A DNA stretch of 64,000 bases. It comes from Geminicoccus roseus DSM 18922. Its GTDB lineage: Bacteria > Pseudomonadota > Alphaproteobacteria > Geminicoccales > Geminicoccaceae. Each line of letters begins with the position of its first letter. Position 1 is the stretch's first letter. The notes under the pieces are model-generated. The model worked only from the letters and a program-made list of their open reading frames with translations, made no database searches and was not told where the DNA came from. Of the stretch, positions 2,540 to 41,804 are shown piece after piece. The translations under genes and the position numbers were made by a program. The DNA lies in assembly GCF_000427665.1 (NCBI RefSeq), contig NZ_KE386572.1, positions 372,001 through 436,000 of the forward strand, read 5' to 3'.

Positions 2540-3664
<1,125 letters not shown>

Positions 3665-24376: not shown

Positions 24377-24877
24377 ATGAAGTCCAATCTTCGATCGGCC
24401 GCTCTCGGCCTCTGCGCAGCCCTGGCCCTGGCGGTCGTGCCGCTGCAGGGGTCCGGGGCCGGGACCAGCACCACGACCCTGGCCGTGGGCGTCACCGTGG
24501 TCAGCAACTGCAAGGTGGCCGCCGCCGCCCTGACCTTTGCGAACTATGTCAGCGGGCAGACCGAGAACGTCGACACCACCACCACCCTGTCCTACTCCGG
24601 CTGCCCCAACGAAAGCCTGAAGTTCGAGCTGAACGACGGCAACAACGTCCAGGGCAGCTACCGGGGGATGCGCAGCAGCGGCGGGTCGGTCCTGGGCTAC
24701 CAGCTCTACCGCAACGCCAACTACAACAGCCTGATCGGCACCGGCAGCAACGCGGTGAGCTTCACCGCACCGTCCAGCGGCAGCGGCACGGTGACGGTCT
24801 ATGGCCGGATCCCGGCCAACCAGTCGGTGCCGGCCGGCAGCTACACCGACACGGTCGGGGTCACCCTGACCTTCTGA
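24377..24877 (+). CDS. Spore coat protein U (SCPU) domain protein, secreted
   Basis: 166 aa. Signal peptide (about 1-29: ALGLCAALALAVVPLQGSGAG), then a single SCPU domain of the Csu-type pilin/adhesin class. It has two cysteines (SNCKVAAA and SGCPNESLKFEL) and the closing VPAGSYTDTVGVTLTF motif shared with chaperone-usher type pilins. AGGAAAGG lies upstream of the ATG. No chaperone, usher or second pilin gene is adjacent, so it is an orphan subunit or a stand-alone secreted domain. Confidence 0.85.
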   Translation: MKSNLRSAALGLCAALALAVVPLQGSGAGTSTTTLAVGVTVVSNCKVAAAALTFANYVSGQTENVDTTTTLSYSGCPNESLKFELNDGNNVQGSYRGMRSSGGSVLGYQLYRNANYNSLIGTGSNAVSFTAPSSGSGTVTVYGRIPANQSVPAGSYTDTVGVTLTF

Positions 24878-24972: not shown

Positions 24973-25461
24973 TCAGATCTGGCTCTGGCCGAAGTTCTGG
25001 ATGCCGATCCGCTCGATCAGCTCCAGTTCCGCCTTGTTGTGGTCCTGGTGCTCCTCCTCTTCCTCGAGGATGTGGATGAACAGGTCGCGGGTCACGTAGT
25101 CGCCATGCCGCTCGGCGATGGCGATGCCCTTGCGGTACTGCTCGATCCCCTCGAGTTCGAGGCGGTAGTCGCACTCGATGATCTCTTTGAGGTCCTGGCC
25201 GATATAGAGCTTGCCCAGGTCCTGCAGGTTGGGGAGGCCTTCCAGCAGCAGGATGCGCTTGATCAGCTTGTCCGCGTGCTGCATCTCCTCGATCGATTCC
25301 TTGTATTCCGCCTCGCCGCGCTTGAAGAAGCCCCAGTTCTCCAGGATCCGCGCATGCAGGAAATACTGGTTGATCGCGGTGAGCTCGCCCTTCAGGGAAA
25401 GATTGAGGGCGGCCAGCACCTCGGGATGCCCCTTCACGGGGGCTGCGGTCGACATCGGCAT
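24973..25461 (-). CDS. bfr: Bacterioferritin (haem-containing iron store)
   Basis: 162-aa ferritin-like four-helix-bundle protein. Di-iron ligands are visible as LKGELTAINQYF, EEMQHADKL, LEGIEQY and EEEEHQDH; the Met of EEMQHAD is the haem axial ligand. Length is typical of Bfr. Several ATGs cluster at 25453-25470; I chose 25461 because AGGA lies 9 nt upstream. It overlaps or abuts the end of the ABC ATPase gene and is the third gene of bfd-ATPase-bfr. Stores iron as ferric mineral; release is normally through Bfd. Confidence 0.95.
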   Translation of the reverse strand: MPMSTAAPVKGHPEVLAALNLSLKGELTAINQYFLHARILENWGFFKRGEAEYKESIEEMQHADKLIKRILLLEGLPNLQDLGKLYIGQDLKEIIECDYRLELEGIEQYRKGIAIAERHGDYVTRDLFIHILEEEEEHQDHNKAELELIERIGIQNFGQSQI

Positions 25462-25466
25462 GAGCA

Positions 25467-26612
25467 TCATTCCTGCAGGTTTGGCGCAGGGACGATGCCC
25501 CCTTTCCTTGAGCCGTTCAAGACAGCGGGATCGGGAAAGACGAACAGCGATTCGGGCGCGAACGCCAGGCCGATCTCGCCGCCCACCCGGTGCGCCACCT
25601 CGCCCGGCACATGGATGTCGCCCAGCCGGTTGCCCTTGGCGGCCAGCTCGACCCGGCAGCGGTCGCCCAGGTCGCGGCAGGCCAGCACCGTCGCCCGCCA
25701 GGGGCTCTTGCCCAGGGCCACCGGGGTGAGGTCGCGGGTGCGCAGGATCACCTCGACGTCGCTCTGGGTATCGCCCTCGATCGGGATCGGCCCGATCGGG
25801 GTAGCCAGGCAGCCCTGCTCCGGGCTGCCGCAAAAGCGCAGCACCGGGCCGAAGAAGCCGGCGACGAAGCGGGTCTCCGGCATCCGGTAGAGCTGGCCGA
25901 CCGTGCCCGACTGGGTGATCCGGCCATCCTCGATCACGTGGATCCGGTCGGCCTCGGCGATCGCCTCGTCGGGATCGTGGGTGACCATCAGCACCGGGAT
26001 GCCGGCATGGCGCAGGATCGTCAGCACGCTGGCGCGGACTTCCGCCCGAAGGCTCGGATCCAGCGCGGAGAAGGCTTCGTCCAGCAGCACGGCACGGGGC
26101 GAGGCGGCCAGCGCCCGGGCCAGGGCCGCGCGCTGCTGCTCGCCGCCGGACAGCTCGTGGGGAAATTTCGCCGCATGGCCGGCCAGGCCGACCAGGGCCA
26201 GGAGCTCGCCGACCCGGCGCTCGCGGACCCTGGCATCCGGGGTGCGCAGGCCGAAGCCGACATTGCGGGCGACGGTCATGTGCGGGAACAGCGCCACGTC
26301 CTGGAACATCAGCCCCATCGACCGGCGCTCGGGCGGCACGAACCGGTCCGGCCCGCTCAGCTCCTGGTCATCCAGGGCGACGATGCCGGCGCGCGCCCGC
26401 TCCAGGCCGGCGATCAGGCGCAGCACCGTGGACTTGCCCGAGCCGGACGGGCCCAGCAGGCAGTGCACCGCCCCGGGCGGCACCTGCAGCGACACGTCCT
26501 CCAGGGAGAAGCCGCGCCCGTCGCCCAGATCATAGCGATGATGGATATGCTCGACCCGGAGGCCGGCCCCGGACGCCGGCTGCGGCGCCCGGCAGCTGGC
26601 GGCTGAGATCAC
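25467..26612 (-). CDS. ABC ATPase of the Fe(III)/polyamine type (FbpC-like) without a permease
   Basis: 381 aa: ABC domain with Walker A LLGPSGSGKST (about 52-62), Q-loop FQDVALFPHMTV, signature LSGGEQQR and Walker B AVLLDEAFSALD, then a C-terminal TOBE-like regulatory region (about 250-360). This is the layout of FbpC/PotA importers. The start is a GTG overlapping the bfd stop (GTGA). It lies between bfd and bfr, so a link with iron uptake is likely. No permease or binding-protein gene is next to it, so its membrane partner must be encoded elsewhere. Confidence 0.85.
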   Translation of the reverse strand: MISAASCRAPQPASGAGLRVEHIHHRYDLGDGRGFSLEDVSLQVPPGAVHCLLGPSGSGKSTVLRLIAGLERARAGIVALDDQELSGPDRFVPPERRSMGLMFQDVALFPHMTVARNVGFGLRTPDARVRERRVGELLALVGLAGHAAKFPHELSGGEQQRAALARALAASPRAVLLDEAFSALDPSLRAEVRASVLTILRHAGIPVLMVTHDPDEAIAEADRIHVIEDGRITQSGTVGQLYRMPETRFVAGFFGPVLRFCGSPEQGCLATPIGPIPIEGDTQSDVEVILRTRDLTPVALGKSPWRATVLACRDLGDRCRVELAAKGNRLGDIHVPGEVAHRVGGEIGLAFAPESLFVFPDPAVLNGSRKGGIVPAPNLQE

Positions 26613-26833
26613 CCCGCCACCTCGTCCAGACAGGTCGCCGCCTGCTTCGCGGCCTCGCGCTCATGGCGCGCACGCACCTCGTCGATGATCGCCTCCATGG
26701 TCGGCAGGCAGCGCCCGCAGCACACGGTGGCGCCCATCACGGCATGCAGGTCCTCGCCGGCATCCACGGACCGGGCGGCGGCCGCCCGCTCGCAGTCGGC
26801 TTCACTCAGGCAGTTGCAGACGCAGACGATCAT
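26609..26833 (-). CDS. bfd: Bacterioferritin-associated ferredoxin, [2Fe-2S]
   Basis: 74-aa BFD-like protein. Four cysteines in the family pattern bind a [2Fe-2S] cluster: CVC at residues 4-6, and C39 and C42 in VCCGRC (C8 and C38 are additional). It reduces the mineral of bacterioferritin so that Fe(II) is released. Smallest gene of the bfd-ATPase-bfr group and first in it. The 220-bp gap to the divergent oxidoreductase holds no ORF but contains ATTGTT-N8-AACAAT near 26950. Confidence 0.9.
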   Translation of the reverse strand: MIVCVCNCLSEADCERAAAARSVDAGEDLHAVMGATVCCGRCLPTMEAIIDEVRARHEREAAKQAATCLDEVAG

Positions 26834-27053
26834 GATCGGCTCGGGTGGACCAGCACGGGTGAAAGGGACATGCCACATATCGGGACGCCATGCCTGATAT
26901 GCCAGGACCATTGGAACCTCGGGGCATCCGGGTAAAGCCGAACCCGACCATTGTTTTATTTGGAACAATTCGAAACTGAGGCGGCCCGGCTTCTCTGGAG
27001 CCGCCTGCGGCGGAGTGCTATCGCGCTTCTCGGACAGCGGATGACGGGCGACG

Positions 27054-28301
27054 ATGAAGCGGTTCTCGGCGGCACGGATCATGGACGAGGCGGCCGGCGG
27101 CCACCGGGGCTGGGGGCCGCACTGGACCGACCGCGCCGAGCCCTTGCCGCGCTACGACGTGGTGGTGATCGGCGGCGGCGGCCACGGCCTGTCAACCGCC
27201 TACCACCTGGCGAAGAACCACGGCATCCGCCGGGTCTGCGTGGTGGAGAAGGGCTGGCTCGGCGGCGGCAACACCGGGCGCAACACCATCACGATCCGCT
27301 CCAACTATTTCTATCCCGAGAGCGTCGCCCTCTACGACCTGGCGCTGCGCCTCTACGAGCGGCTCTCGGTCGAGCTGAACTTCAACATCATGGTCAGCCA
27401 GCGCGGCGTGGTCCGCCTGGCCCATTCCGATTCCGACATGGAGCTGTGCGCCCGCTTCGTGAACGCCATGCTGCTGAACGGGGTCGACGCCGAACTCCTG
27501 GACGAGGCGCAGCTGCGCCAGGAGATCCCGGGCTTGAACACGCGCGGCCGCTACCCCTTGTATGGCGGCTACGTCCAGCGCCGCGCCGGGGTCGCCCGCC
27601 ACGACGCGGTCGCCTGGGGCTATGCCCGCGCCGCCACCGCGCTGGGCGTCGACATCGTGCAGAACTGCCAGGTGGAGGGCTTCGACATCCAGGGCGGCCG
27701 GGTGGAGGCGGTGCGCACCGCCAAGGGCCGGATCGAGTGCGGCCAGGTCGCCTTGTGCGTGGCCGGCCATTCCGGCCATCTGGCGGAGATGGCCGGCTTT
27801 CGCCTGCCGATCACGTCGATGTGCCTGCAGGCCCTGGTCAGCGAGCCGGTGAAGCCGTTCCTCGACCGGGTGATCATGGATCCGCCCACCGGCACCTATG
27901 TCAGCCAGTCCGACAAGGGCGAGCTGGTGGTGGGCGGCGGGCTGGACCTTTATCCCTCCTATGCGCAGCGCGGCAACTGGCCGGTCCTGGAGACGGTGGT
28001 GGCGGGCCTGGTCGACATCCTGCCGGCCGCGTCGAACCTGAAGATGATGCGCAAATGGGGCGGGGTCTGCGACATCGTCCACGACAGCTCGCCGATCATC
28101 GGCCCGGCCCCGGTGGACGGGATGGTGCTCAACTGCGGCTGGGGCACCGGCGGGTTCAAGGCGATCCCGGCGGGCGGCTGGCTGACCGCGCACCTGATCG
28201 CCCATGGCGCCCATCACCCCGTCAGCCGCCCGTTCGACCTGGAGCGGTTCGTGACCGGCAGGCTGATCGACGAGGCGGCCGCGTCCGGCATCGCCCACTG
28301 A
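27054..28301 (+). CDS. FAD-dependent oxidoreductase, sarcosine oxidase beta-subunit-like
   Basis: 415 aa, DAO superfamily. The dinucleotide-binding motif is YDVVVIGGGGHGLSTAYHL (about 34-52), then EKGWLGGGNTGRNT, which is diagnostic of the beta subunit (SoxB) of heterotetrameric sarcosine oxidase. The C-terminal CDIVHDSSPIIGPAPVDG and GWGTGGFKAIPAGG motifs also match. Length agrees with SoxB. Unlike in canonical soxBDAG operons, no delta, alpha or gamma gene is adjacent, so it either works alone or on a related N-methyl amino acid. The start is the ATG at 27054. Confidence 0.85.
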   Translation: MKRFSAARIMDEAAGGHRGWGPHWTDRAEPLPRYDVVVIGGGGHGLSTAYHLAKNHGIRRVCVVEKGWLGGGNTGRNTITIRSNYFYPESVALYDLALRLYERLSVELNFNIMVSQRGVVRLAHSDSDMELCARFVNAMLLNGVDAELLDEAQLRQEIPGLNTRGRYPLYGGYVQRRAGVARHDAVAWGYARAATALGVDIVQNCQVEGFDIQGGRVEAVRTAKGRIECGQVALCVAGHSGHLAEMAGFRLPITSMCLQALVSEPVKPFLDRVIMDPPTGTYVSQSDKGELVVGGGLDLYPSYAQRGNWPVLETVVAGLVDILPAASNLKMMRKWGGVCDIVHDSSPIIGPAPVDGMVLNCGWGTGGFKAIPAGGWLTAHLIAHGAHHPVSRPFDLERFVTGRLIDEAAASGIAH

Positions 28302-30558: not shown

Positions 30559-32370
30559 TCAGCCCGGCGGCGGTGACAGGATCGCGAGCCCGGCCTTTCG
30601 CAGGCCGTCGGCCATGTGCTCGATGTGCGGATCCGGAATCTTCCAGACGCGCGCCAGGGTCCAGAAGCGCTCGCGGATAGTGGGATTCAAGGCAAGCGCC
30701 ACCTCGATATAGGGCTGCGCTTCCTCGTTCCGGTCGAGTTGTCCCAGGATCATCGCCCTGAACAGCGACAGCCACATCCTCGGCACCTCGGATCGGCGGA
30801 CCTCGCGCAGCGCCTGATCGTAATCGCCCTTCTGGTAGGAATAATAGATCAGCGGATCCCGGTACCATCCCGGAGCGTCGGGATTGAGCATGATCGCCTT
30901 GCCGACCAGGCCGCGGCCATCCTCCCACTCGCCCATGTAGACGAGCCGCGTCCCGAAATGGGCGAGGACATCCGGATCATTGGGGTTGAGGGTCAGGGCC
31001 CGCTCGCCGGCCATCCTGAAGCCGGCGATGTCGTCGCGATCGAAGAGCGCGTTGGAAAGCATCAGCTGGGCGACCGGGCTTCTCGGCTCGATCTCGACGC
31101 CGCGCCGCGCCGCGGCGAGCGACCGTTCCCTGGCGTCGTAGAGTTCCGGCCGCGGGTTGATCTCCTGGCGATATTCCTGGGCATAGATGTTGGCGAGCAC
31201 GGCCCAGGCGTCGGCATAGTCCGGCTCCAGTTCCACCGCCCGCTCCAGGCAGCCGCGGACCTCTGCATGCTCCTGCCGATCGAACGACTTCTGGTAGTGG
31301 TAGTAGCGCAGAAGACATTCATAAGCGGCCAGGGAGCCCGGGGGACGCCGCTGCGCTTCCGTCTGACCTTCCTCCGCGATGATGCCGTAGCTGCCGGCAA
31401 GGGTCGCCACGATCTTGTCCGAGATGTCTTCCTGGATGTCGAAGATGTTCGAGGGCGTGAGCTTGCTCCGGTAGGGTTCCGCCCAGACGATCCCGCCGCT
31501 TCGGGTGTCGATCAGGCGGGCCATCAGCCTGATCTCCTCGTTCTGGCGTTGAACGCTGCCGGTCAGCAGATAGTCGACCTCCAGGTCCGGGCTCACGTCC
31601 GCCGCGGAAAGCGGCAGGGCCGGGGCATCCGCCGAACGCTGCAACGGCAGCACGAACAGGGCGCGGAACCGCGCAAGGTCGGTCACGATCTCCTCGGTGA
31701 TTCCCTGGGCGAGATAAGCCTGCTCGGGATCGTCCCCCAGGCCCAGGAACGGCGCCACGGCGATCCGCGGACCTCGGGGCAGGTCGATGGCGGCGGTGGC
31801 GTCCGCTTCAGGCAGCGACGACACCCTTCCTGGTCCCGCTGCGCTCCAGGCCAGGGCCAGAAGAACCACAACCACAAGGGGGGCGAGCATGAGCCAGCGC
31901 CGCTGCGGCCATGGCCGCTCGGGGGCCTTGGGCGGAAGGGCGACCTCAGCGGCCTTCTCGACCTCCCGATCTTCGAAGCTCGGGACGTAGCCGCCCTTCG
32001 GGATCGATAGGATGACCGGGTCCTGCTTGCCCGCCGTGTCATAGTAGCTGTGCAGGTCGCGGCGGAGACGGCGCGCTTCCACCCGGACAACCGGATCGGA
32101 TTGGGGATCGAAATTCTGGTCGCGCGCGAACACCGCCACGGCGATCGTGAAGCCCTTCAGCTGGTCGCCGCGGCCGGCCAGCGTCTCCTCGACGATGAAC
32201 TCCAGCAGGCGGCGGCGGGCCGCGCTGGCCTGGAAGCCCGGGTCCGCGAGGATGCGGCGCATCTGGGCGCGCACGGCATCATGCGACGGCTGCTCAACCG
32301 CAGGGGTGTCATCATGGGCTGAGGCAGCAACAGACAAGGGCAACCGTCCTTCCATCCTGTGGCGCCACAT
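30559..32370 (-). CDS. Membrane-bound CadC-like regulator with TolB-like and TPR periplasmic part
   Basis: 603 aa. Residues 30-130 contain RLLEFIVEETLAG and a recognition-helix/wing-like segment (VVRVEARRLRRDLHSYY, then ILSIPKGGYVPSF) that resembles OmpR/CadC winged helices. One membrane helix (158-178, LMLAPLVVVVLLALAWSAA) follows. The rest begins with a TolB/FlgO-like domain (RIAVAPFLGLGDDPEQAYLAQGITEEIVTDL) and ends in TPR repeats (about 330-590). Similar proteins are often labelled adenylate cyclase although no cyclase domain is visible. It is divergent from the sulfatase/MoxR operon and its promoter region holds a perfect 22-bp palindrome, so it may regulate that operon. That role is inference. 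Confidence 0.75.
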   Translation of the reverse strand: MWRHRMEGRLPLSVAASAHDDTPAVEQPSHDAVRAQMRRILADPGFQASAARRRLLEFIVEETLAGRGDQLKGFTIAVAVFARDQNFDPQSDPVVRVEARRLRRDLHSYYDTAGKQDPVILSIPKGGYVPSFEDREVEKAAEVALPPKAPERPWPQRRWLMLAPLVVVVLLALAWSAAGPGRVSSLPEADATAAIDLPRGPRIAVAPFLGLGDDPEQAYLAQGITEEIVTDLARFRALFVLPLQRSADAPALPLSAADVSPDLEVDYLLTGSVQRQNEEIRLMARLIDTRSGGIVWAEPYRSKLTPSNIFDIQEDISDKIVATLAGSYGIIAEEGQTEAQRRPPGSLAAYECLLRYYHYQKSFDRQEHAEVRGCLERAVELEPDYADAWAVLANIYAQEYRQEINPRPELYDARERSLAAARRGVEIEPRSPVAQLMLSNALFDRDDIAGFRMAGERALTLNPNDPDVLAHFGTRLVYMGEWEDGRGLVGKAIMLNPDAPGWYRDPLIYYSYQKGDYDQALREVRRSEVPRMWLSLFRAMILGQLDRNEEAQPYIEVALALNPTIRERFWTLARVWKIPDPHIEHMADGLRKAGLAILSPPPG

Positions 32371-32470
32371 GAGTCGCCGTCACCTACCCATTGATCTGCT
32401 AGCTGAGAACCCCCGGGGGCAGGAAACATTCGTCGGCCGGCCCGGTGCGATGATCGGTCGGGAATCCTCA

Positions 32471-32492
32471 AGGTGCGAACATGTTCGCACCT
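32471..32492. promoter_or_regulatory. Perfect 22-bp palindrome in the divergent promoter region
   Basis: AGGTGCGAACA is followed at once by its exact complement TGTTCGCACCT. The palindrome lies 101 bp before the chosen TPR-regulator start and 63 bp before the 80-residue protein gene. A gapless perfect 22-bp palindrome is typical of a dimeric regulator site. Its core GAAC-AT-GTTC has 2-bp spacing, unlike the GAAC-N4-GTTC LexA box. Confidence 0.7.
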
Positions 32493-32554
32493 ACCGCTTC
32501 AGGCAGTACGAAAGCTATCGGGGTCTGGTTCAGAGAACATGCAGGACAGGTCAG

Positions 32555-32797
32555 GTGCAGGGCGTCGATCTGCTCGTGAGCCGGTTTCCGACACAGGAGT
32601 TCTCGATCCGGCGGCTCTATGCCTGCGATCCGGACTTCCGGATGGTGTGTGACGACTACGAGGACGTGCAGAATGCGCTGCAGCATTGGCAGGCCGATGA
32701 TCGAGCGACACCAGGAATGGTCGGCCACTACCGCACTTTGCTGGAGGAGTTGGAGACTGAGGTGCTGAGCATTCTGACCAGGCGCAGGAAGGCGTGA
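32555..32797 (+). CDS. Small conserved protein at the head of the sulfatase/MoxR operon
   Basis: 80 aa from the GTG at 32555 (AGGACAGG upstream). The body reads FPTQEFSIRRLYACDPDFR, then a VCDDYEDVQNALQHW segment and GHYRTLLEELETEVLSIL. I know this pattern as a small uncharacterised alphaproteobacterial family: acidic, helical, with alternating Arg/Glu heptads. It has no signal peptide, so it is cytoplasmic. It is the first gene of the run and ends 41 bp before the beta-barrel gene. An open frame extends upstream to 32147 but crosses the palindrome and the divergent gene, so I reject it. Confidence 0.65.
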   Translation: MQGVDLLVSRFPTQEFSIRRLYACDPDFRMVCDDYEDVQNALQHWQADDRATPGMVGHYRTLLEELETEVLSILTRRRKA

Positions 32798-32838
32798 GTG
32801 GGCCGAGATCTGGGCAAAAGTGCAGAGAAGGCAACGTG

Positions 32839-33627
32839 ATGCGTCATCTCGCTGTGGGCGTGCTTGCTGCACTGGCGACCCCCGCCGCCGCCTGGGCCCA
32901 GTCCGACGAGGATCTGGCCAAGCAGCTTGCGAACCCGGTTGCCAGTCTGATCAGCGTGCCCTTCCAGTTCAACTACGACCGCGGCTATGGCCAGGACGAC
33001 GGCGATAGGACCTACCTCAACATCCAGCCGGTGATCCCGGTCTCGCTGAGCGAAAACTGGAACCTGATCTCCCGCACCATCCTGCCGGTGGTCTGGCAGA
33101 ATGACGTGGTCGGCGACACCGAGCAGTTCGGGCTCGGCGACACGGTGCAGAGCGTGTTCTTTTCGCCCAAGGAGCCGAGCAACGGGATCATCTGGGGTGT
33201 CGGGCCGGTCTTCCTGGTGCCGACGGGGACCGACGACGCGTTGGGCACCCAGAAGTGGGGAGCAGGACCGACCGGGGTGGCGCTCACCCAATCCGGCCCC
33301 TGGACCTATGGCGCCCTGGCCAACCATATCTGGTCGTTCGCCGGCGAGGGCAGCCGCAGCGACGTCAACACCACATTTCTGCAACCTTTCCTGAACTATA
33401 CGACCGCCGACGCCACCACGTTCTTCCTCAACACCGAGACGACCTACGACTGGGAGGCAGACCAGGCTTCCGTCCCGATCAATTTCGGCGTCAACCAGCT
33501 CATCGACGTGTCCGGGCAGAAGATCCAGGTCGGCGCGGGGCTGCGCTACTGGGCCGCTTCTCCGGACGATGGTCCGGAAGGGTTCGGTGGGCGTATCAAT
33601 CTCACCTTCCTCTTTCCGACCGGATAG
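32839..33627 (+). CDS. Outer-membrane beta-barrel protein, MetA/phenol-degradation-like
   Basis: 262 aa with a signal peptide (about 1-20, ending AAAWAQ). The mature part is rich in alternating hydrophobic strands and aromatic girdle residues: VPFQFNYDRGYGQDDGDRT, IWGVGPVFLVPTG, WTYGALANHIWSFAG, and a C-terminal RINLTFLFPTG strand. The pattern fits the family often annotated as neuromedin U or transporter, which is related to MetA-pathway barrels. AGAAGG lies upstream of the ATG. It could be the outer-membrane pore for a sulfated substrate used by the operon. Confidence 0.75.
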   Translation: MRHLAVGVLAALATPAAAWAQSDEDLAKQLANPVASLISVPFQFNYDRGYGQDDGDRTYLNIQPVIPVSLSENWNLISRTILPVVWQNDVVGDTEQFGLGDTVQSVFFSPKEPSNGIIWGVGPVFLVPTGTDDALGTQKWGAGPTGVALTQSGPWTYGALANHIWSFAGEGSRSDVNTTFLQPFLNYTTADATTFFLNTETTYDWEADQASVPINFGVNQLIDVSGQKIQVGAGLRYWAASPDDGPEGFGGRINLTFLFPTG

Positions 33628-33643: not shown

Positions 33644-34675
33644 ATGAGCGACCTGCGATTGCCTCACCGAACAGAACCGGCCGTTGCACCGCCGCGCGCG
33701 GGCAGGCCAGGGGCGGCGGAGGGCCGTGCGACGGCGGCAGTCGTCCGGCCGGCCAGCGCGGATGCCGGCAACGGCATGGTCTACCTTCCCGGCGCTTCCT
33801 TCCGGATGGGTTCGGATCGGCACTACCCGGAAGAGGCGCCGGTGTGCACCGTGCAGGTCGAAAGCTTCTGGATCGACCGGACCGCGGTCACCAACCGGCA
33901 GTACGCCGCTTTCGTGGCGGCCACCGGCTATGTGACGGTGGCAGAGCGGCCGCTCGATCCGGCGCAGTATCCGGGGGCCTCGCTGGACATGCTGAAGCCG
34001 GGCGCGCTGGTGTTTACCAAGCCCAGGAAGCGTGTCGACCTGCGCGACATGCACAACTGGTGGCGCTACGTGCCAGGCACGTCGTGGCGCAGCCCGGAAG
34101 GTCCGGGCAGCACCATCAAGGGCCGCGAGGACTACCCCGTCGTCCAGGTCGCTTACGAGGACGCGCTCAGCTTTGCGCGCTGGGCCGACAAGGACCTGCC
34201 GAGCGAGGCGGAGTGGGAGTTCGCCGCCCGGGGCGGGCTGGATGGCGCCGAGTTCTGCTGGGGCGACGAGTTCCGTCCGGGTGGCCGTCACATGGCGAAC
34301 ACCTGGCAGGGCGAGTTCCCCCACCAGAACACCCGCGGCGACGGCTATGAGCGGCTGGCGCCGGTCGGCGTGTTTCCGCCGAACGGCTATGGCCTGTCCG
34401 ACATGGCCGGCAATGTCTGGGAGTGGACCTCGGACTGGTACGCGCCGGTGCGGACAGCGGCGGGATGCTGCGGTTCCGGCAGCGAGGCCGAAAGCTACGA
34501 CCCGCGCCAGCCACAGGTCCGCATCCCGCGCAAGGTCGTCAAGGGCGGCTCGTTCCTGTGCGCGCCCAACTATTGCTTGCGCTACCGGCCGGCAGCCCGC
34601 CAGCCGCAGATGATCGACAGCGCGATGTCCCATCTCGGGTTCCGCTGCATAAGAAGAGGAGAGAACGCCGGATGA
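33644..34675 (+). CDS. Formylglycine-generating enzyme (sulfatase-activating, SUMF1-type)
   Basis: 343 aa. Oxidises the active-site cysteine of a sulfatase to C-alpha-formylglycine, using oxygen and copper. The FGE-sulfatase fold is clear: MVYLPGASFRMGSDRHYPEE, FWIDRTAVTNRQYAAFV, LPSEAEWEFAARGG, YGLSDMAGNVWEWTSDWY and the catalytic cysteine pair in SFLCAPNYCLRYR (Cys at about 306 and 311). The N-terminal 40 residues are Pro/Ala-rich with no signal peptide, so it works in the cytoplasm before export. The TGA overlaps the sulfatase ATG by 4 bp: enzyme and substrate are translated together. Confidence 0.93.
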   Translation: MSDLRLPHRTEPAVAPPRAGRPGAAEGRATAAVVRPASADAGNGMVYLPGASFRMGSDRHYPEEAPVCTVQVESFWIDRTAVTNRQYAAFVAATGYVTVAERPLDPAQYPGASLDMLKPGALVFTKPRKRVDLRDMHNWWRYVPGTSWRSPEGPGSTIKGREDYPVVQVAYEDALSFARWADKDLPSEAEWEFAARGGLDGAEFCWGDEFRPGGRHMANTWQGEFPHQNTRGDGYERLAPVGVFPPNGYGLSDMAGNVWEWTSDWYAPVRTAAGCCGSGSEAESYDPRQPQVRIPRKVVKGGSFLCAPNYCLRYRPAARQPQMIDSAMSHLGFRCIRRGENAG

Positions 34676-36354
34676 CCGCGAAGCCACACGATCAGGGAAG
34701 CCCACCGTCCGATCAGGTCCGGGTCGACCGCCGCTCGATGCTGCTGTCCGGCAGCAGCCTGGCCCTGGCCTCCACGGTGGGGGCGGCACTGACCGGCTCT
34801 GCCCAGGCGCAGGAGACCACTCCCGCGACGCCGGCGCCGGCTTCGGCCGGGGCCACCGAGATGCCCAACATCCTGGTGATCTGGGGCGACGACATCGGCC
34901 AGAGCAACATCAGCGCCTATACCAGGGGCCTGATGGGCTACCGGACACCCAACATCGACCGGATCGCGAACGAGGGCGCGCTGTTCACCGACGCCTATGG
35001 CGAGCAGAGCTGCACCGCCGGCCGGGCGGCGTTCATCCTGGGCCAGCATCCCTTCCGCACCGGCCTCCTCACCATCGGCATGCCCGGCTCGCCCCATGGC
35101 ATCCCGGAATGGGCGCCGACGATCGCCGACGTGATGAAGGGCAAGGGCTACGCCACCGGGCAGTTCGGCAAGAACCATCTGGGCGACCAGGACGAGCACC
35201 TGCCGACCAACCACGGCTTCGACGAGTTCTTCGGCAATCTCTACCACCTGAACGCGGAAGAAGAGCCGGAAGGCTACTACTACCCGAAGGACCCGGCGTT
35301 CCGCGAGAAGTACGGTCCGCGGGGCGTCATCCATTCGCGGGCCGACGGCCAGATCGAGGATACCGGCCCGCTGACCCGCAAGCGCATGGAGACGATCGAC
35401 GAGGAGATCCTGCAGCACGCGACCGACTTCATCGATCGCAACGCTGCCGCGTCGAAGCCGTTCTTCGTCTGGTTCAACACCACCCGGATGCATGTCTGGA
35501 CCCATCTGAAGCCGGAATCCGTCGGCACCACCGGGGTCGGGCTCTATCCGGACGGCATGGTCGAGCATGACGGCCATGTCGGGCAGTTGCTGAAGAAGCT
35601 CGACGACCTCGGCATCGCCGACAATACGATCGTTATGTACTCGACCGACAACGGCGCCGAAGAAGTCTCCTGGCCGGATGGCGGCACCACGCCGTTCAAG
35701 GGCGAGAAGGGCACGACCTGGGAAGGCGGGCACCGCGTGCCGATGCTGGTGCGCTGGCCCGGCGTCATCGAGCCCGGCACCGTCATCAACGAGCCGGTGG
35801 CCCACAACGACTGGATGCCCACCTTCGCGGCCGCGGCCGGCGAACCCGATCTGGTCCAGAAGATGGCGCAGGGCTACACCACCAACAACAAGACCTTCAA
35901 GGTGCACCTCGACGGCTACAACCTGGTGCCCCTCCTGAAGGGCGAGGTCGAGGAAGGGCCCCGCGACTTCTACCTGTACTTCTCGCAGGCGGGCGAGCTG
36001 AACGCGGCCCGGTGGGGCGACTGGAAGATCCATTTCGCGGTGATCCGCGGCAACATCGCCACCGGCACGCGCGAAACGCCCGGTTGGCCCCTCATCATCA
36101 ACCTGCGGGCCGATCCCTACGAACGGGCACCGGACGAATCCGGCATGTACATCCGGTGGTACGGCGATCTCCTCTGGCTGTTCGTGCCGATCCAGGAACG
36201 TCTCAAGGAGTTCTTCGCAGACTTTGAGGACTATCCCTACCAGCTCGGCACGAGCCTGAATGCCGGCAACATCAACTACAACACGTTGCAGGCGCGTCAG
36301 GCGTTCGGGCGCCTGCAGCAGCTCGAGGAGTTCATGCCAGGGGCACGCAACTGA
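34672..36354 (+). CDS. Arylsulfatase, Tat-exported
   Basis: 560 aa. A twin-arginine signal (VDRRSMLLSGSSLALAS, RR at 20-21) exports the folded, matured enzyme. The sulfatase domain starts at PNILVIWGDDIGQSN with metal-binding Asp 73-74. The modification motif is CTAGR at 114-118, with Ala in place of the usual Pro. Further ligands lie in GKNHLGD, STDNGAEE and the EKGTTWEGGHRVPM loop. It hydrolyses sulfate esters; the natural substrate is unknown. Start overlaps the FGE stop; end overlaps the MoxR gene. Confidence 0.92.
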   Translation: MTAKPHDQGSPPSDQVRVDRRSMLLSGSSLALASTVGAALTGSAQAQETTPATPAPASAGATEMPNILVIWGDDIGQSNISAYTRGLMGYRTPNIDRIANEGALFTDAYGEQSCTAGRAAFILGQHPFRTGLLTIGMPGSPHGIPEWAPTIADVMKGKGYATGQFGKNHLGDQDEHLPTNHGFDEFFGNLYHLNAEEEPEGYYYPKDPAFREKYGPRGVIHSRADGQIEDTGPLTRKRMETIDEEILQHATDFIDRNAAASKPFFVWFNTTRMHVWTHLKPESVGTTGVGLYPDGMVEHDGHVGQLLKKLDDLGIADNTIVMYSTDNGAEEVSWPDGGTTPFKGEKGTTWEGGHRVPMLVRWPGVIEPGTVINEPVAHNDWMPTFAAAAGEPDLVQKMAQGYTTNNKTFKVHLDGYNLVPLLKGEVEEGPRDFYLYFSQAGELNAARWGDWKIHFAVIRGNIATGTRETPGWPLIINLRADPYERAPDESGMYIRWYGDLLWLFVPIQERLKEFFADFEDYPYQLGTSLNAGNINYNTLQARQAFGRLQQLEEFMPGARN

Positions 36355-37343
36355 GCGAAGCCTCGGCCTCCCGGGCGCGCGACGCGGTCCTCACGCTGCG
36401 CGCCCGGATCCAGGAATCGATCATTGGCCAGGAGCAGGTGACCGAGCGCCTGCTCCTCTGCCTGCTCTGCAACGGCAACATGCTCCTGGAAGGCCTGCCG
36501 GGTCTGGCCAAGACCCGGGCGATCAAGACGCTCGCCAAGAACCTGGAAGGCAACTTCCAGCGCATCCAGTTCACGCCGGACCTCCTGCCGTCCGACGTGA
36601 CCGGCACAGAGATCTACTACGAGCAGGGCGGCGCCGGCACGTTCAAGTTCCAGCCGGGACCTGTGTTCGGCAACCTCGTCCTGGCCGACGAGATCAACCG
36701 GGCCGGGGCCAAGGTGCAGGCGGCGCTCCTGGAGGCGATGGAGGAGCGGCAGGTCACCGTGGCCGGAACCACCCACCGGCTGCCGGACCTGTTCATGGTG
36801 CTGGCGACCCAGAACCCGATCGAGCAGGAGGGGACCTACCCGCTGCCCGAGGCGCAGATGGACCGGTTCCTGATGCACGTCACCATCAGCTATCCGAGCG
36901 ATGCGGCGGAGCTGGAGGTGATGCGCCTGGTGCGCGGCGAGGAGAATGCCGCCTCCGGCCCTCATGGGCCCTCGGCCGACATGATCCCGCAGGCGATGAT
37001 CTTCGAGGCCCGCGCGGCGATCCGCGCCCTGCCGATCACGGAGCCGGTCGAGCGCTACATCGTCGACCTGATCGCCGCGACGCGCCGGCCGGAGAGGTTC
37101 GGCGACCGGCTGAAGGGCTGGATCCAGATCGGCGCCAGCCCGCGCGGCACGATCGCCCTGGACAAGGCGGCCCGGGCGCATGCCTGGCTGCATGGGCGGG
37201 ACTTCGTCTCGCCGGACGATGTCCGCTCGGTGCTGGGCGACTGCCTGCGCCACCGGCTGACGCTCAGCTACGATGCCGTGGCCGAGGGCATCACCAAGGA
37301 TGCCGTGATCGCGGAACTGGCAAAACAGGTGGCGGTGGCCTGA
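36351..37343 (+). CDS. MoxR-family AAA+ ATPase
   Basis: About 330 aa. Walker A EGLPGLAKT, Walker B VLADEINRA, the ATQNPIEQEGTYPLPEAQMDRF sensor region and the C-terminal lid (VEGITKDAVI) are intact, as in MoxR chaperones that work with VWA proteins on metal-cofactor or protein maturation. No ATG, GTG or TTG lies in frame before the conserved IIGQE motif: the first is a GTG at 36438, which would delete it. I therefore extend to the CTG at 36351, which overlaps the sulfatase stop as CTGA and has AGGGG 8 nt upstream. The start is unproven. DUF58 and VWA genes follow. Confidence 0.82.
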   Translation: MSEASASRARDAVLTLRARIQESIIGQEQVTERLLLCLLCNGNMLLEGLPGLAKTRAIKTLAKNLEGNFQRIQFTPDLLPSDVTGTEIYYEQGGAGTFKFQPGPVFGNLVLADEINRAGAKVQAALLEAMEERQVTVAGTTHRLPDLFMVLATQNPIEQEGTYPLPEAQMDRFLMHVTISYPSDAAELEVMRLVRGEENAASGPHGPSADMIPQAMIFEARAAIRALPITEPVERYIVDLIAATRRPERFGDRLKGWIQIGASPRGTIALDKAARAHAWLHGRDFVSPDDVRSVLGDCLRHRLTLSYDAVAEGITKDAVIAELAKQVAVA

Positions 37344-37358
37344 ACGGGAGAGGCAACA

Positions 37359-38390
37359 ATGCGGTGGACGACGGTGCGGAAATGCCGAGGCATGCTGGCG
37401 GGGCTGGCCCTGTGGTCGCTCGCGGCCTGCGCCTCGGGCGGAACGGCCACGACCGAGGTCGACCCGCTGCCCTCGTGGAACCCGACCCCGGTCAAGTATG
37501 CGCTGGTCGACTTCGTCGAGCGCGTGATCACCGAGGGCGACCCCCGCTACCTGCCGCCCGGCGAACGCATCGCGACCTTCGACAATGACGGCACGCTGTG
37601 GGCGGAGCAGCCGATCTATTTCGAGGTCCTGTTCGCGCTCGACCGGGTGCGCGCCATGGAGGCCGACCATCCGGAATGGCGGACGGAGGAGCCTTATGCC
37701 TCGGTGATCGCCAACGACCCGGAACGGCTGGCACGGCTCAGCCAGGCCGACCTCGTCAAGATCATCGCCGTCACCCATACCGGCATGACCGAGCAGGCCT
37801 TCGAGGCGGACACGAAGGAGTGGTTCGCCACCGCGCGCCATCCCACGCTCCAAAAGCCGTTCCCTGCCCTCGTCTATCAGCCGCAGCTGGAGCTGCTGGA
37901 CTACCTGCGCGCCCACGGCTTCGAAACCTTCATCGTGTCCGGCGGCGAGGTCGACTTCATCCGGGCGTTCGCGCCGGAAGCCTACGGCATCCCGCCGGAG
38001 CAGATCATGGGCACGACGCTCGGCTACCGCTTCCAGGAGGTCGACGGCCAGCCGGTGATCGACCGGCTGCCGGAGGTGATGATCAACGGCGACAATGTCG
38101 GCAAGCCGGTCAACATCCACCTGCACATCGGCAAGAAGCCGGTCCTGGCGTTCGGCAACTCCGACGGGGACCTGCAGATGCTGCAGTACGCCGACAGCGG
38201 CGACGGCCCGCGCATGATGCTGCTCCTGCACCACGACGATGCGGAGCGCGAGTTCGCCTATGACCGGCAGTCCCATGTGGGCCGGCTCGACAAGGCCTGG
38301 GACGAGGCGAAGAAGCGGGGCTGGACGGTGGTCAGCATGAAGAACGACTTCGCGACCATCTTTCCGGCCACGCCGGCCAACGACGACTGA
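37359..38390 (+). CDS. HAD-superfamily phosphatase, predicted lipoprotein
   Basis: 343 aa. Lipobox SLAAC near residue 23 indicates a lipid-anchored periplasmic protein. HAD motif I is ATFDNDGTLWAE (about 69-80), motif II FIVSGGEVDF and motif IV VLAFGNSDGD with the metal Asp. The family is phosphoserine-phosphatase-like (HAD subclass with C1 cap). GGGAGAGG lies upstream of the ATG. It would remove phosphate from a periplasmic substrate beside the sulfatase; placement between MoxR and DUF58 genes is recurrent in this operon type as far as I know. Confidence 0.82.
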   Translation: MRWTTVRKCRGMLAGLALWSLAACASGGTATTEVDPLPSWNPTPVKYALVDFVERVITEGDPRYLPPGERIATFDNDGTLWAEQPIYFEVLFALDRVRAMEADHPEWRTEEPYASVIANDPERLARLSQADLVKIIAVTHTGMTEQAFEADTKEWFATARHPTLQKPFPALVYQPQLELLDYLRAHGFETFIVSGGEVDFIRAFAPEAYGIPPEQIMGTTLGYRFQEVDGQPVIDRLPEVMINGDNVGKPVNIHLHIGKKPVLAFGNSDGDLQMLQYADSGDGPRMMLLLHHDDAEREFAYDRQSHVGRLDKAWDEAKKRGWTVVSMKNDFATIFPATPANDD

Positions 38391-38396
38391 CGCGCC

Positions 38397-39341
38397 ATGG
38401 CTGGCAGGGCAGACCAGGGCGTCCATGTCGAGCTGCAGGACCTGGTGCGCCTGCGCGCCCAGGCCAGCGGCTTCTCGTTCCTGCCCCGCCAGCCGGTCCA
38501 CAGCCTGCTGGCCGGCCGCCATGCCTCCCGCCTGCGCGGCCGCGGCCTGAGCTTCGAGGAGCTGCGCCGCTATGTGCCGGGCGACGATGTCCGCGCCATC
38601 GACTGGAAGGTCACCGCGCGCACCCGCAAGCCGCATGTCCGGGTGTTCACCGAGGAACGCGACCGTCCGGTGCTGCTGGTGGTGGATCAGCGCCGCTCGA
38701 TGTTCTTCGGCAGCAGGCGCGCGATGAAATCGGTGGCGGCGGCCGAGCTTGCGGCGCTGGCGGCCTGGCGGGCGCTGGCGGCGGGCGACCGTGTCGGCCT
38801 GCTCGTGTTCGACGACCACGACGTGGTGGCGATCCCGGCCCGGCGCAGCCAGCAGCAGGTGCTGCAGATCATCCACGCCATCGTCCGCAAGAACCGTGCA
38901 TTGCGGGCGGACCTGCCGCTCCATCCCGATCCCGCCATCCTCGACCGCGTGCTCGACGCCGCGCTCAGGATCGCCACGCATGACCAGCTCGTCTGCCTGA
39001 TCGGCGATGGCGCCGGCGTCGGGGCGCACACGATCGAGCAGGTCACCCGCCTGTCCCGGCACAACGACGTGCTGTTCGCCTTCGTGTTCGATCCCCTGGA
39101 AGCCAGCCTGCCCGAGGCCGGCACGCTGGTGATGGCTGCAGGCGAGCTGCAGCTGGAGGTGGACACGTCCAGCCGCCGGCTTGGCCAGAGCTTCGCCGAC
39201 GACTTCGCCCAGCGCCTGCAGACCCTGCGCCGGCTGTCCCGCGAGCGCGCCATGCCGTTCCTGCCGATCTCGACCGAGGGCGAGGTGGCCGGCCAGGTCC
39301 GCAGCCTGCTGGGCAGGCATGCCGCCAGGCGGGCCGCCTGA
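38397..39341 (+). CDS. DUF58 protein, MoxR partner
   Basis: 314 aa with the DUF58 core GRGLSFEELRRYVPGDDVRAIDWKVTARTRKPHVRVF (in blocks from about residue 45) followed by a VWA-like domain starting LLVVDQRRSMFFGS. The MIDAS equivalent is D-Q-R-R-S, so one serine is replaced by Arg. DUF58 proteins accompany MoxR ATPases and are proposed to bind client proteins. No membrane segment. It is 6 bp after the HAD gene and 1 bp before the DUF4381 gene. Confidence 0.88.
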   Translation: MAGRADQGVHVELQDLVRLRAQASGFSFLPRQPVHSLLAGRHASRLRGRGLSFEELRRYVPGDDVRAIDWKVTARTRKPHVRVFTEERDRPVLLVVDQRRSMFFGSRRAMKSVAAAELAALAAWRALAAGDRVGLLVFDDHDVVAIPARRSQQQVLQIIHAIVRKNRALRADLPLHPDPAILDRVLDAALRIATHDQLVCLIGDGAGVGAHTIEQVTRLSRHNDVLFAFVFDPLEASLPEAGTLVMAAGELQLEVDTSSRRLGQSFADDFAQRLQTLRRLSRERAMPFLPISTEGEVAGQVRSLLGRHAARRAA

Positions 39342-39342
39342 G

Positions 39343-39825
39343 ATGGACCAGACCGACCCCGGCAGCCTGGCAGGCCTGCACGACATCGTCGCTTCCCCGC
39401 CGGTCCCCTTCTGGCCGCCGGCGCCGGGCTGGTACGTCGTGGCGCTGGCCCTGGCGATGACCCTTGGCTGGGCCTGCTGGCGGACGGCCCGTCGATGGCG
39501 GGCCGATGCCTACCGGCGCGCGGCGCTTGCCGAGCTGCAGTCAGCCGGAGGGCGCCGCGACCAGCTGACCATCCTGCCGGAACTGCTCAAGCGCACGGCG
39601 CTGGCGGCCTATCCCCGGGAGCGGGTCGCCTCGCTCAGCGGCCAGGCCTGGCTGGCCTTCCTGGACGAGACAGCCGCCGCTCCGGCGTTCACCACCGGGC
39701 CGGGCCGGCCGCTCGGCGCGCTCGCCTATGATCCGGGCCTAGCCAGGCGCATGAGCGAAGCGGACGGGGACGCCCTCTTGGCCGCCGCCACCGCCTGGAT
39801 CCGCCGCCACCGGGCAGCGCCCTGA
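39343..39825 (+). CDS. DUF4381 membrane protein
   Basis: 160 aa with one membrane helix (about 26-46, GWYVVALALAMTLGWACW), flanked by a periplasmic PPVPFWPPAPG motif typical of DUF4381 and a cytoplasmic helical region with Arg-rich start (RRWRADAYRRAALAEL) and LLKRTALAAYPRERVASL. It is a regular member of bat/MoxR operons. The stop overlaps the VWA gene start by one base (TGATG). Confidence 0.85.
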   Translation: MDQTDPGSLAGLHDIVASPPVPFWPPAPGWYVVALALAMTLGWACWRTARRWRADAYRRAALAELQSAGGRRDQLTILPELLKRTALAAYPRERVASLSGQAWLAFLDETAAAPAFTTGPGRPLGALAYDPGLARRMSEADGDALLAAATAWIRRHRAAP

Positions 39826-41804
39826 TGATCCAGCTCGCCTATCCCTGGCTCCTGGCGGTCCTGGTCCTGCCGCTCGCGGTTCTGCTGCTGCCGCCGTTCC
39901 GCCAGCCGCGTGCGGCGGTGGCGGTGCCCTTCCTGGACCGGCTGGCCCGGCTGACCGGACAGTCGCCGACGCCCGGGGCGGCGGTGGCCAGGCCCGGCCT
40001 CTTCCAGCGCATCGTCCTGGTCCTTGCCTGGACCTGCATGGTGCTGGCGCTGGCCCGGCCACAATGGGTCGAGCCGCCGGTCGTGCGGGAGCTGCCGACC
40101 CGCGACCTTCTGCTGGCGGTCGACCTGTCGGGCTCGATGGAGACCGAGGACTTCACCGACCAAAGCGGCCGGACGATCGACCGGCTCGCCGCCGCCAAGC
40201 AGGTGGTCGGCGACTTCCTGCTGCGGCGCGACGGCGACCGGGTCGGCCTGATCGTGTTCGGCACGGCACCGTTCGTGCAGGTCCCGTTCACCCAGGATCT
40301 CGCGGTCAGCCGGCGGCTGCTGGACGAGACCAGCGTGCGGATGGCGGGTCCCCAGACCATGCTGGGCGACGCGATCGGCCTGGCGATCAGCACGTTCGAG
40401 AACAGCCAGGTCCAGGAGCGCGTCCTGATCCTGATGACCGACGGCAACGACACCGGCAGCAAGGTGCCGCCGGTGGAGGCGGCGCGGATCGCCCGGGACC
40501 GCGGCATCACCATCCACACGATCGCGGTGGGCGACCCGGCCGCGGTGGGCGAGGACCGGCTCGACGAGGAAACCCTGCGCTCGATCGCCAGCACCACGGG
40601 CGGCGCCTACTTCCACGCGAACGACCGCGCCGAGCTGGAAGGCGTCTACCAGCGCCTGGACGAGCTGGAGACCCGCAAGGTCGAGACGATCAGCTACCGG
40701 CCCAGGCACGACCTGTTCTTCTGGCCGCTCGGCATCGCCCTGGCGCTGACCATGCTGGGCCAGCTGGCCCTGGTGCTGCGCGAGGTGGTGCGCCGGCGGC
40801 GCCCGGCCCCGGTGGCGACGACCGCCGCGTTCTGGCCGGTTCTAGGCATTGGCGAGTTCCACCTGCTGCGGCCCTGGTGGCTCCTGGCGCTGCTGCCGGC
40901 CCTCCTGCTCGCCTGGGAGATCGGGCGGCGGCAGGACAGCGCGCGGCCCTGGCGGGGCGTCATCGCCCCGCACCTCCTGCAGCACCTGATGGTGACGCAG
41001 GAGCAGCAGGGCATCCGTCCCTGGCAGGTGCTGCTGGCGGCATGGTGCATCGCCATCCTGGCCTTGAGCGGGCCGACCTGGCGCCGGGAACCGGCCCCGT
41101 TCGCCCAGGACCAGGCGGCGCTCATGATCGCCATGAAGGTGACGCCGTCGATGCTGGCGCAGGACATCCAGCCCACCCGGCTGGAGCGGGCCGCCCAGAA
41201 GATCAAGGACCTGCTGGCGCTGCGGCCGGATGCCGCCAGCGGGCTGGTCGCCTATGCCGGCAGCGCGCACCTGGTCATGCCGCTCACCCGCGACGCCGAC
41301 ATCGTGGCAGGCTTCGCCGCCGAGCTGGTGCCGGACGTCATGCCGCGAGAAGGCGACGCGCCGGCCGAGGCGGTGGCGCTGGCCGACCAGGAGCTGAAGT
41401 CGTCCGGGCAGCCGGGCTCGATCCTGCTGGTGACCGACGCGGTCACACCCGACCAGGCCGAGGCGCTGCGCAGGATCCGCGAGAATGGCGGCGCGCCGGT
41501 GCATGTGCTCGCGGTGGCGGCCGGCACGGAGGTGTCGGTCGTCGGCGGGCCGCCGGCTCCGGCGCTGGACCGGGCGGCGCTGCAGGCCGCCGCCGATGCG
41601 GGTGGCGGCGGGCTCACGGTGGTGACGCCCGATCCGGCGGATGTCACGGCGCTGGCGGGCGAGGTCGCGACCAGCCTCGCCGACGTGGCGGGCGGCGTCG
41701 ATGGCGGCGAGCGCTGGCAGGATGCCGGCTACTGGCTGGTGCCGCTGGTGGTGCTGCTGAACCTGATGTGGTTCCGCCGCGGCTGGGTCGTGCGATGGTC
41801 ATGA
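39825..41804 (+). CDS. Fused BatA-BatB protein with two VWA domains
   Basis: 659 aa with two copies of the BatA/BatB layout: two N-terminal helices, a VWA domain and a C-terminal helix. Copy 1 (1-320) has an intact MIDAS start D100-LSGS and TDGNDTGS. Copy 2 (about 345-659) begins FHLLRPWWLLALLPALLLAW, and its MIDAS position reads IAMKVTPSM (437-443): Asp replaced by Lys438 and the first Ser by Thr. This copy probably cannot bind metal. BatA and BatB are normally separate genes. The stop overlaps the TPR gene by 4 bp. Confidence 0.87.
   Translation: MIQLAYPWLLAVLVLPLAVLLLPPFRQPRAAVAVPFLDRLARLTGQSPTPGAAVARPGLFQRIVLVLAWTCMVLALARPQWVEPPVVRELPTRDLLLAVDLSGSMETEDFTDQSGRTIDRLAAAKQVVGDFLLRRDGDRVGLIVFGTAPFVQVPFTQDLAVSRRLLDETSVRMAGPQTMLGDAIGLAISTFENSQVQERVLILMTDGNDTGSKVPPVEAARIARDRGITIHTIAVGDPAAVGEDRLDEETLRSIASTTGGAYFHANDRAELEGVYQRLDELETRKVETISYRPRHDLFFWPLGIALALTMLGQLALVLREVVRRRRPAPVATTAAFWPVLGIGEFHLLRPWWLLALLPALLLAWEIGRRQDSARPWRGVIAPHLLQHLMVTQEQQGIRPWQVLLAAWCIAILALSGPTWRREPAPFAQDQAALMIAMKVTPSMLAQDIQPTRLERAAQKIKDLLALRPDAASGLVAYAGSAHLVMPLTRDADIVAGFAAELVPDVMPREGDAPAEAVALADQELKSSGQPGSILLVTDAVTPDQAEALRRIRENGGAPVHVLAVAAGTEVSVVGGPPAPALDRAALQAAADAGGGGLTVVTPDPADVTALAGEVATSLADVAGGVDGGERWQDAGYWLVPLVVLLNLMWFRRGWVVRWS

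Follow-up and report, generated by a model that had tools for sequence, protein, structure and literature searches.

The stretch analyzed here, a 64-kb window of the Geminicoccus roseus DSM 18922 genome (contig NZ_KE386572.1, positions 372,001–436,000; positions below are counted from the first nucleotide of the window), carries on its minus strand a gene for a 603-aa protein that faces an operon across a perfect 22-bp palindrome, and the original prediction had taken the two for a one-component membrane regulator and its operator. Gene order, conservation of the site, its association with one recognition helix and the predicted fold of the N-terminal domain support this reading, and we consider it probable that the protein is a one-component membrane regulator acting through a two-unit site on its own gene and on the operon of the 80-aa protein and sulfatase genes. 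The features of the gene pair are:

30559..32370, minus strand: putative membrane regulator, 603 aa, with a predicted N-terminal DNA-binding domain, one transmembrane (TM) helix and a TolB-like plus TPR part (open reading frame, Pfam, orthologues).
31957..32298, minus strand: predicted N-terminal winged-helix domain, residues 25–138, without Pfam match (alignment, AlphaFold2, fold searches, hhalign).
31837..31893, minus strand: TM segment, residues 160–178, peak mean hydropathy 2.48, arginines on its N-terminal side (hydropathy).
31495..31767, minus strand: TolB_N/FlgO-like region, residues 202–292, predicted periplasmic (weak: TolB_N E 0.0021, below cut-off; FlgO 22.7 bits vs. a cut-off of 22.6).
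30679..31281, minus strand: TPR region, residues 364–564 (Pfam TPR_14 E 1.1e-08, and others).
32471..32492, unstranded: putative operator, a perfect 22-bp palindrome comprising unit 1, GTGCGAACAT (32473–32482), and unit 2, GTTCGCACCT (32483–32492) (sequence, conservation).
32555..32797, plus strand: companion open reading frame, 80 aa, GTG start, without Pfam or NCBIfam match; its family is often divergent from the regulator.

Both the reading frame of the 603-aa protein (30559–32370, minus strand) and the palindrome, read exactly as AGGTGCGAACATGTTCGCACCT at 32471–32492, were found as predicted. The regulator start (32370) and the GTG start of the 80-aa frame (32555) are separated by a gap of 184 bp that holds the palindrome. 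The 80-aa frame, which had not been separated before, is the first gene of the facing operon, and 32797 is its end. AGGTGCGAACATGTTCGCACCT is the sole match to itself within 3 mismatches in the window. Of 200 first-order shuffled versions of the window, 16 also reached arms of at least 11 bases in their longest perfect palindrome, so in 64 kb at 70% GC its length alone is weak evidence, and it is the position and the conservation beside the same gene pair that make it more than chance. A chance palindrome was therefore rejected on conservation, though length alone would not reject it.

The closest orthologue found, the regulator of genome G037 (locus L069, 44% identity), has GTACGAACATGTTCGTAC at 3415–3432; we read 3317 as the likely GTG start of this regulator, which puts the site some 100 bases away. 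A second copy, at 1357–1374, precedes the 80-aa homologue, here encoded after the regulator and on the same strand. The G037 site was noticed in the raw sequence, as a palindrome search centred on open-frame starts missed it. A tblastn search with the 80-aa protein against 72,556 plasmids returned five records. In four of them, from Sinorhizobium terangae, Rhizobium jaguaris, Roseibium aggregatum and Azospirillum argentinense, the 80-aa gene is divergent from a regulator of the family, with the site or a variant of it in between, followed by sulfatase, FGE, HAD or MoxR genes. In the fifth, from Rhizobium sullae (L119), the regulator lies about 7 kb from the 80-aa gene and each gene has its own site, that of the regulator being between it and a divergent MoxR-DUF58-VWA set. 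Thus, where regulator and 80-aa gene are not back to back (G037, R. sullae), there is one site per gene, and conservation of the site at the gene pair spans Hyphomicrobiales and Rhodospirillales.

Comparison of the copies showed what is constant in the site. Aligned toward the 80-aa gene, the right-hand unit is GTTCGYACYT in nine copies (window, two at L069, L102–L106 and L119), and that of the Ruegeria regulator (L110) differs by one change. The left-hand unit is inverted in some copies (GTGCGAACAT, GTACGAACAT, GAGCGAACAT), self-symmetric in another variant (GTACGTACAG; Azospirillum has a self-symmetric unit) and a direct repeat in others (GTTCGCACAT, GTTCGTACAT, GTTCGCACCT; Roseibium and R. 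sullae have direct repeats), and Roseibium shows a third, weaker direct unit, GTTCATACCT. Since the left unit varies in orientation, the constant feature is two units 10 bp apart, that is, one helical turn. The original prediction of a perfect palindrome as operator is thus supported for a conserved two-unit site, while perfect palindromy is one variant of it.

The same variation bears on an alternative in which the palindrome would work at the RNA level, the leader transcript of the 80-aa gene forming a hairpin or attenuator there. A perfect inverted repeat does precede an operon here, and between the window (GTGCGAACATGTTCGCAC) and G037 the flanks have changed on both sides together (GTG..CAC vs. 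GTA..TAC), as a hairpin would also have it. However, the palindrome has no spacer for a loop, no terminator-like site was found in 32300–32900, and the direct-repeat units of Roseibium and R. sullae and the self-symmetric unit of Azospirillum should be unable to form the same hairpin and would suit DNA binding. We regard an RNA role as very improbable.

Matches to the site were scored out of 15. Beside the Ruegeria regulator the score was 12/15 (4 of 200 shuffles as good), and neither there nor beside the R. sullae regulator was a companion gene found in the fetched stretch, so the site tracks the regulator. Conversely, four sulfatase gene sets without an adjoining regulator (L083, L085, L086 and L087; L085 from G037) gave no match of at least 13/15; at L083 a single 12/15 match lies over 7 kb away from the leading gene of its set. 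These results indicated that the site goes with the regulator and not with sulfatase genes as such.

They also bear on a different assignment, in which another DNA-binding protein, such as a LexA-like repressor or the 80-aa companion itself, uses the site as its operator, while the 603-aa protein has a different role, for example that of an envelope sensor. The 80-aa family often adjoins the regulator, and CGAACATGTTCG, the 12-bp core of the palindrome, resembles the Gram-positive LexA box, but with a spacer of 2 rather than 4 bases. Against the companion, the site stands beside the L119 and L110 regulators, where the fetched stretch showed no companion gene, and the companion stands beside regulators with another helix and no such site (L108, L109, L112, L113). 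Against a LexA-like repressor, there is one exact core in the 5.7-Mb genome, unlike an SOS regulon, and some copies of the site are direct repeats and not GAAC..GTTC. The several genomic copies expected of a LexA/SOS box were thus absent from the genome of the window (G000), with one core and no excess over the control; SOS genes were not looked up. We judge this assignment unlikely.

Genome-wide, G000 (5.70 Mb) has a single copy of the core CGAACATGTTCG and G037 (5.4 Mb) has two, all of them beside the regulator/80-aa pair, and the four other genomes of the same search have none. The fuller pattern GTNCGNACATGTTCGYAC was found at four places in 2 of 385 genomes of the class, three of them at this module and the fourth (G037:C149) inside a reading frame that by eye encodes an alpha/beta hydrolase; the backward control of the pattern gave no match among the matches listed for these 385 genomes. 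Among the 10 genomes with the N-terminal domain, G000 and G037 are those whose regulator has the recognition-helix pattern described below. At up to 3 mismatches, the 20-base pattern gave 8 matches in G000, two of them the module's own, vs. 28 for the backward control. An earlier search gave two places with 3 mismatches, and the one inspected (L002) lies inside a 683-aa reading frame. A genome-wide regulon was rejected on the lack of an excess of near matches over the backward control. A single site in 5.7 Mb without such an excess makes the regulator look local and not global.

The presence of the site was then compared with the recognition helix. For regulators with the helix pattern VR.EA.RLR[RQH][DE][LI][DH].YY, the site was present at 12/15 or better in 8/8, vs. 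0/30 of the others. The count covers the 38 N-terminal domains with a readable helix from 39 scanned: L078 was scanned (9/15) but lies outside it, its helix being unfit for the text pattern, and the operator scan did not take in the second N-terminal domains of L107, L108 and L109. Two of the eight, L110 (12/15) and L119 (15/15), came after the site pattern was first written. The site, which the original prediction expected beside orthologues as a palindrome, was thus found beside those sharing the helix pattern, and not beside others (G001, G021, G005).

A second two-unit element, GTAGNNTACGGTANNNTACG, was seen upstream of other-helix regulators, scoring 15/15 in L112, L120, L121 and L122, 14/15 in L118 and L155, 13/15 in L113, and 12/15 in L076, L079, L109, L123, L160 and L161; we derived the consensus by eye from L112, L113, L118 and L120–L122 before scoring it. 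Many other-helix regulators have neither site type. We tentatively take GTAGNNTACGGTANNNTACG as a second site type. At L120 the two 9-base arms of the element are perfectly complementary around one base. At L120, L121 and L125, regulators of this second group have DUF3300 and DUF2950 genes nearby.

The 80-aa protein of the window gave no match in Pfam or NCBIfam, and the companion gene is previously undescribed. By a hidden Markov model of its family, 18 of the 51 loci fetched through the regulator search have a member that is divergent from the regulator and no more than 1.5 kb away, and 6 others have one at another place in the locus; L102–L106, fetched via the companion gene, were left out of this count. 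At L112, L113 and L161 the family stands beside regulators that have the second site type, and at L118, L120 and L121 a member lies 3–4 kb upstream on the same strand. The companion may be a partner or modulator of the regulator.

The N-terminal domain had been predicted to be an OmpR/CadC-like winged helix. Pfam Trans_reg_C (PF00486) gave no match in the window regulator at E 0.1, and weak matches in 4 of 42 N-terminal domains at E up to 1 (best 0.089), which places the domain outside that family. With a 3-sequence alignment, the best AlphaFold2 model reached a predicted local distance difference test score (pLDDT) of 84.2 and a predicted template modelling score of 0.80, while a single-sequence model (pLDDT 53) was useless. 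In the former, four helices are followed by a hairpin (helices 26–40, 49–57 and 69–87 and strands 95–98 and 107–110 among the elements), and the N-terminal beta-sheet is absent; the order of helices and the C-terminal hairpin fit a winged helix, and the predicted structure has the helical core, long recognition helix and beta-hairpin wing of the OmpR/PhoB fold. The top three Foldseek chains were ArlR and PhoB DNA-binding domains, and VIA, a re-examination of Foldseek's own match list, had OmpR/PhoB-type DNA-binding domains at all of ranks 1–16 (Z 8.1 to 6.6). In a profile comparison, hhalign aligned 42 N-terminal domains with 12 Trans_reg_C domains of the same genome at E 0.001, but a probability of only 21.5%, over 76 columns in near full-length register, scoring 23.9 vs. 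a best of 22.1 among 300 column-shuffled decoys (0/300 as high). A profile search of PDB sequences found nothing credible (best E 0.067, an RNA polymerase). No single result is decisive; taken together, we take these predictions to show a diverged branch of the OmpR/PhoB winged-helix fold. The predicted fold stands nearest OmpR/PhoB domains, and, Trans_reg_C being unmatched, "CadC-like" describes the probable working of the protein and not its family membership.

The domain family was found in 276 plasmid records and, among 289 genomes of the class, in 10, that of the window counted; a scan of genome contigs gave one distant TPR match. At L107, L108 and L109 (plasmids of Sinorhizobium sp. RAC02, R. 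gallicum and S. meliloti) the N-terminal domain occurs twice in tandem in one open frame, an arrangement that would suit a two-unit operator. Shorter members, with coding sequences of 314–325 codons, at L117, L124 and L126 have the N-terminal domain and part of the TolB region, and gave no match to the TPR region. Scans of viral contigs found two loci with the family, neither with a first-type site of at least 12/15.

The rest of the protein agreed with the original prediction. Hydropathy windows above 1.6 are confined to residues 156–183, giving a single membrane-type segment that peaks at residues 160–178, and the TPR and weak TolB_N/FlgO matches all lie C-terminal to it, so that one predicted TM helix stands between the N-terminal domain and the TolB/TPR part, as in the CadC/ToxR-type layout. 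No receiver domain was matched in Pfam at E 0.1, which speaks against a response regulator.

Several plasmid relatives are annotated as adenylate cyclase, others often as hypothetical protein. If the former label were right, the protein would be a cyclase and the site a chance palindrome, for which the equally long palindromes in shuffled windows and a match to TIGR04510, a putative peptide-modification-system cyclase (E 0.016), could be cited. However, no Pfam cyclase family matched at E up to 0.1, no NCBIfam model matched above its cut-off, and the sub-threshold NCBIfam matches, CadC (17.5 bits) and TIGR04510 (13.7 bits), each with a cut-off of 400, both fall over the TolB/TPR part, that of TIGR04510 covering residues 268–402. 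The conservation of the site at the same gene pair in two orders also contradicts chance. The doubt cast on this label by the original prediction was thus justified, and we give the cyclase and chance-palindrome explanation, already largely contradicted, only a slight probability.

Several known systems offer comparisons. In PhoB and OmpR, the DNA-binding domains bind tandem units one turn apart, with a site spacing of 10–11 bp. Similar to these, the window site has two units one helical turn apart, and the best structural matches of the domain were SaeR, ArlR and PhoB with pho box, OmpR with F1 DNA being at VIA rank 19; in contrast to them, the window protein has no receiver-domain match and its model lacks the N-terminal beta-sheet. 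With CadC and ToxR it shares a predicted N-terminal winged helix, one TM helix, a C-terminal sensor part and a putative operator beside the controlled gene, and a V. cholerae complex with ToxR and TcpP was at VIA rank 25 (Z 5.8). For the cadBA promoter, a published CadC study describes a quasi-palindromic sequence as well as two CadC DNA-binding domains modelled head-to-head (PMC5430869), an arrangement comparable to the inverted site variant of the window. Unlike in CadC and ToxR, the predicted winged helix of the window protein lies outside Trans_reg_C, the family has a TolB/TPR sensor part and a small companion gene, and the site is GC-rich, with two units and three orientation variants. 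The genome of the window also encodes a genuine Trans_reg_C protein (67 bits) with a TolB/TPR-like C-terminal part (G000:C5:1571175); the overall layout and a related TolB/TPR part are shared with such regulators, whereas the window's N-terminal domain is not recognised by that model. With class III adenylate cyclases carrying TPR, the common points are the annotation label of relatives and the TPR part, but no catalytic domain was matched in the window protein. A literature search brought up no account of this regulator family that we recognised, the subscription literature being mostly outside its reach and absence not proven.

Downstream of the 80-aa frame, the facing genes are:

32839..33627, plus strand: 262-aa protein, start signal-peptide-like by eye (Roseibium homologue, 67% identity, annotated "transporter").
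33644..34675, plus strand: FGE-sulfatase family protein, sulfatase-modifying factor type (Pfam E 2.4e-78).
34672..36354, plus strand: sulfatase, with a Tat-like signal sequence by eye (RRSMLLSG) (Pfam E 1.4e-49).
36438..37343, plus strand: MoxR-type AAA ATPase (Pfam AAA_3 E 6.4e-63).
37359..38390, plus strand: HAD-family hydrolase (Pfam E 4.2e-14).
38397..39341, plus strand: DUF58 protein (Pfam E 1.6e-40).
39825..41804, plus strand: VWA-domain protein (Pfam E 1.4e-28).

Sulfatase or FGE genes adjoin six of the eight helix-class regulators (window, L102, L103, L105, L106, L119). The 9-kb G037 contig shows, of the operon genes, a homologue of the 262-aa protein only, and among the annotated neighbours in Ruegeria are an alkyl-sulfatase-type gene and one for a 3-sulfinopropanoyl-CoA desulfinase. 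From the sulfatase/FGE genes and the Ruegeria neighbours, sulfur scavenging is a likely context. Elsewhere in the window, close-set minus-strand frames at 24973–27082 resemble, by eye, bacterioferritin, an ABC ATPase and a bacterioferritin-associated ferredoxin, and the end of a plus-strand frame at about 24385–24877 resembles, by eye, a secreted spore-coat-U-type protein.

As a mechanism for the one-component regulator, we propose that its cytoplasmic N-terminal domain, a divergent OmpR/PhoB-type winged helix, would bind both 10-bp units (32473–32492), and that the protein would do so in dimeric form, each subunit taking one helical turn. The periplasmic TolB/TPR part may sense an envelope or substrate signal, and the regulator would control its own gene and switch the 80-aa gene with the sulfatase/FGE/MoxR/DUF58/VWA operon; control of both is most likely because the site lies between two divergent genes. 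That the protein binds DNA and forms dimers is our inference, as are its topology, its signal, the sign of its control and how far the operon extends. Our guess is an activator more likely than a repressor, no promoter geometry favouring either.

Several results weigh against the regulator-and-operator interpretation. Orthologues from the same genus and family that are 34–38% identical (G001, G021, G005) have no site beside them. The site pattern was first written from the window, L069 and L102–L106, which hold six of the eight helix-class regulators, one of its positions was loosened with all eight in view, to the profit of L106 and L119, and the helix pattern was drawn after looking; because the loci had been seen before and share ancestry, 8/8 does not amount to eight independent tests. 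Among 19 further domains (17 with readable helices; L146 repeats the place of L070), none was of the window helix class, and L150, of another helix type, had a 12/15 match, none of the 19 being higher. As for the fold, one of five AlphaFold2 models was confident (the other four at pLDDT 42.7–45.2), the Foldseek E-values were weak (0.2–0.6, best 0.2), the VIA Z-scores (8.1 and below) lie in the range that the tool calls common for models without a clear match, and the hhalign probability was just 21.5%. A −10 element at a fixed distance from the site was unsupported, with 460 of 2000 shuffles as good, and a fixed promoter distance was rejected on the same test.

Beyond the single locus, the data suggest, at somewhat below an even chance in our estimate, a large alphaproteobacterial family, often labelled adenylate cyclase, in which a winged helix missed by Pfam would read tandem 10-bp operators through a recognition-helix code (GTnCGnAC-type vs. 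GTAnnnTACG-type units by helix type), with two domains per chain in some members and the back-to-back small protein as a dedicated partner. If the N-terminal domain is a true DNA-binding domain with a readable operator, the targets of such regulators would be predictable from sequence and wrong cyclase labels could be corrected, and the gene pair, with its local regulator, one site and one sulfatase operon, would be a compact test case.

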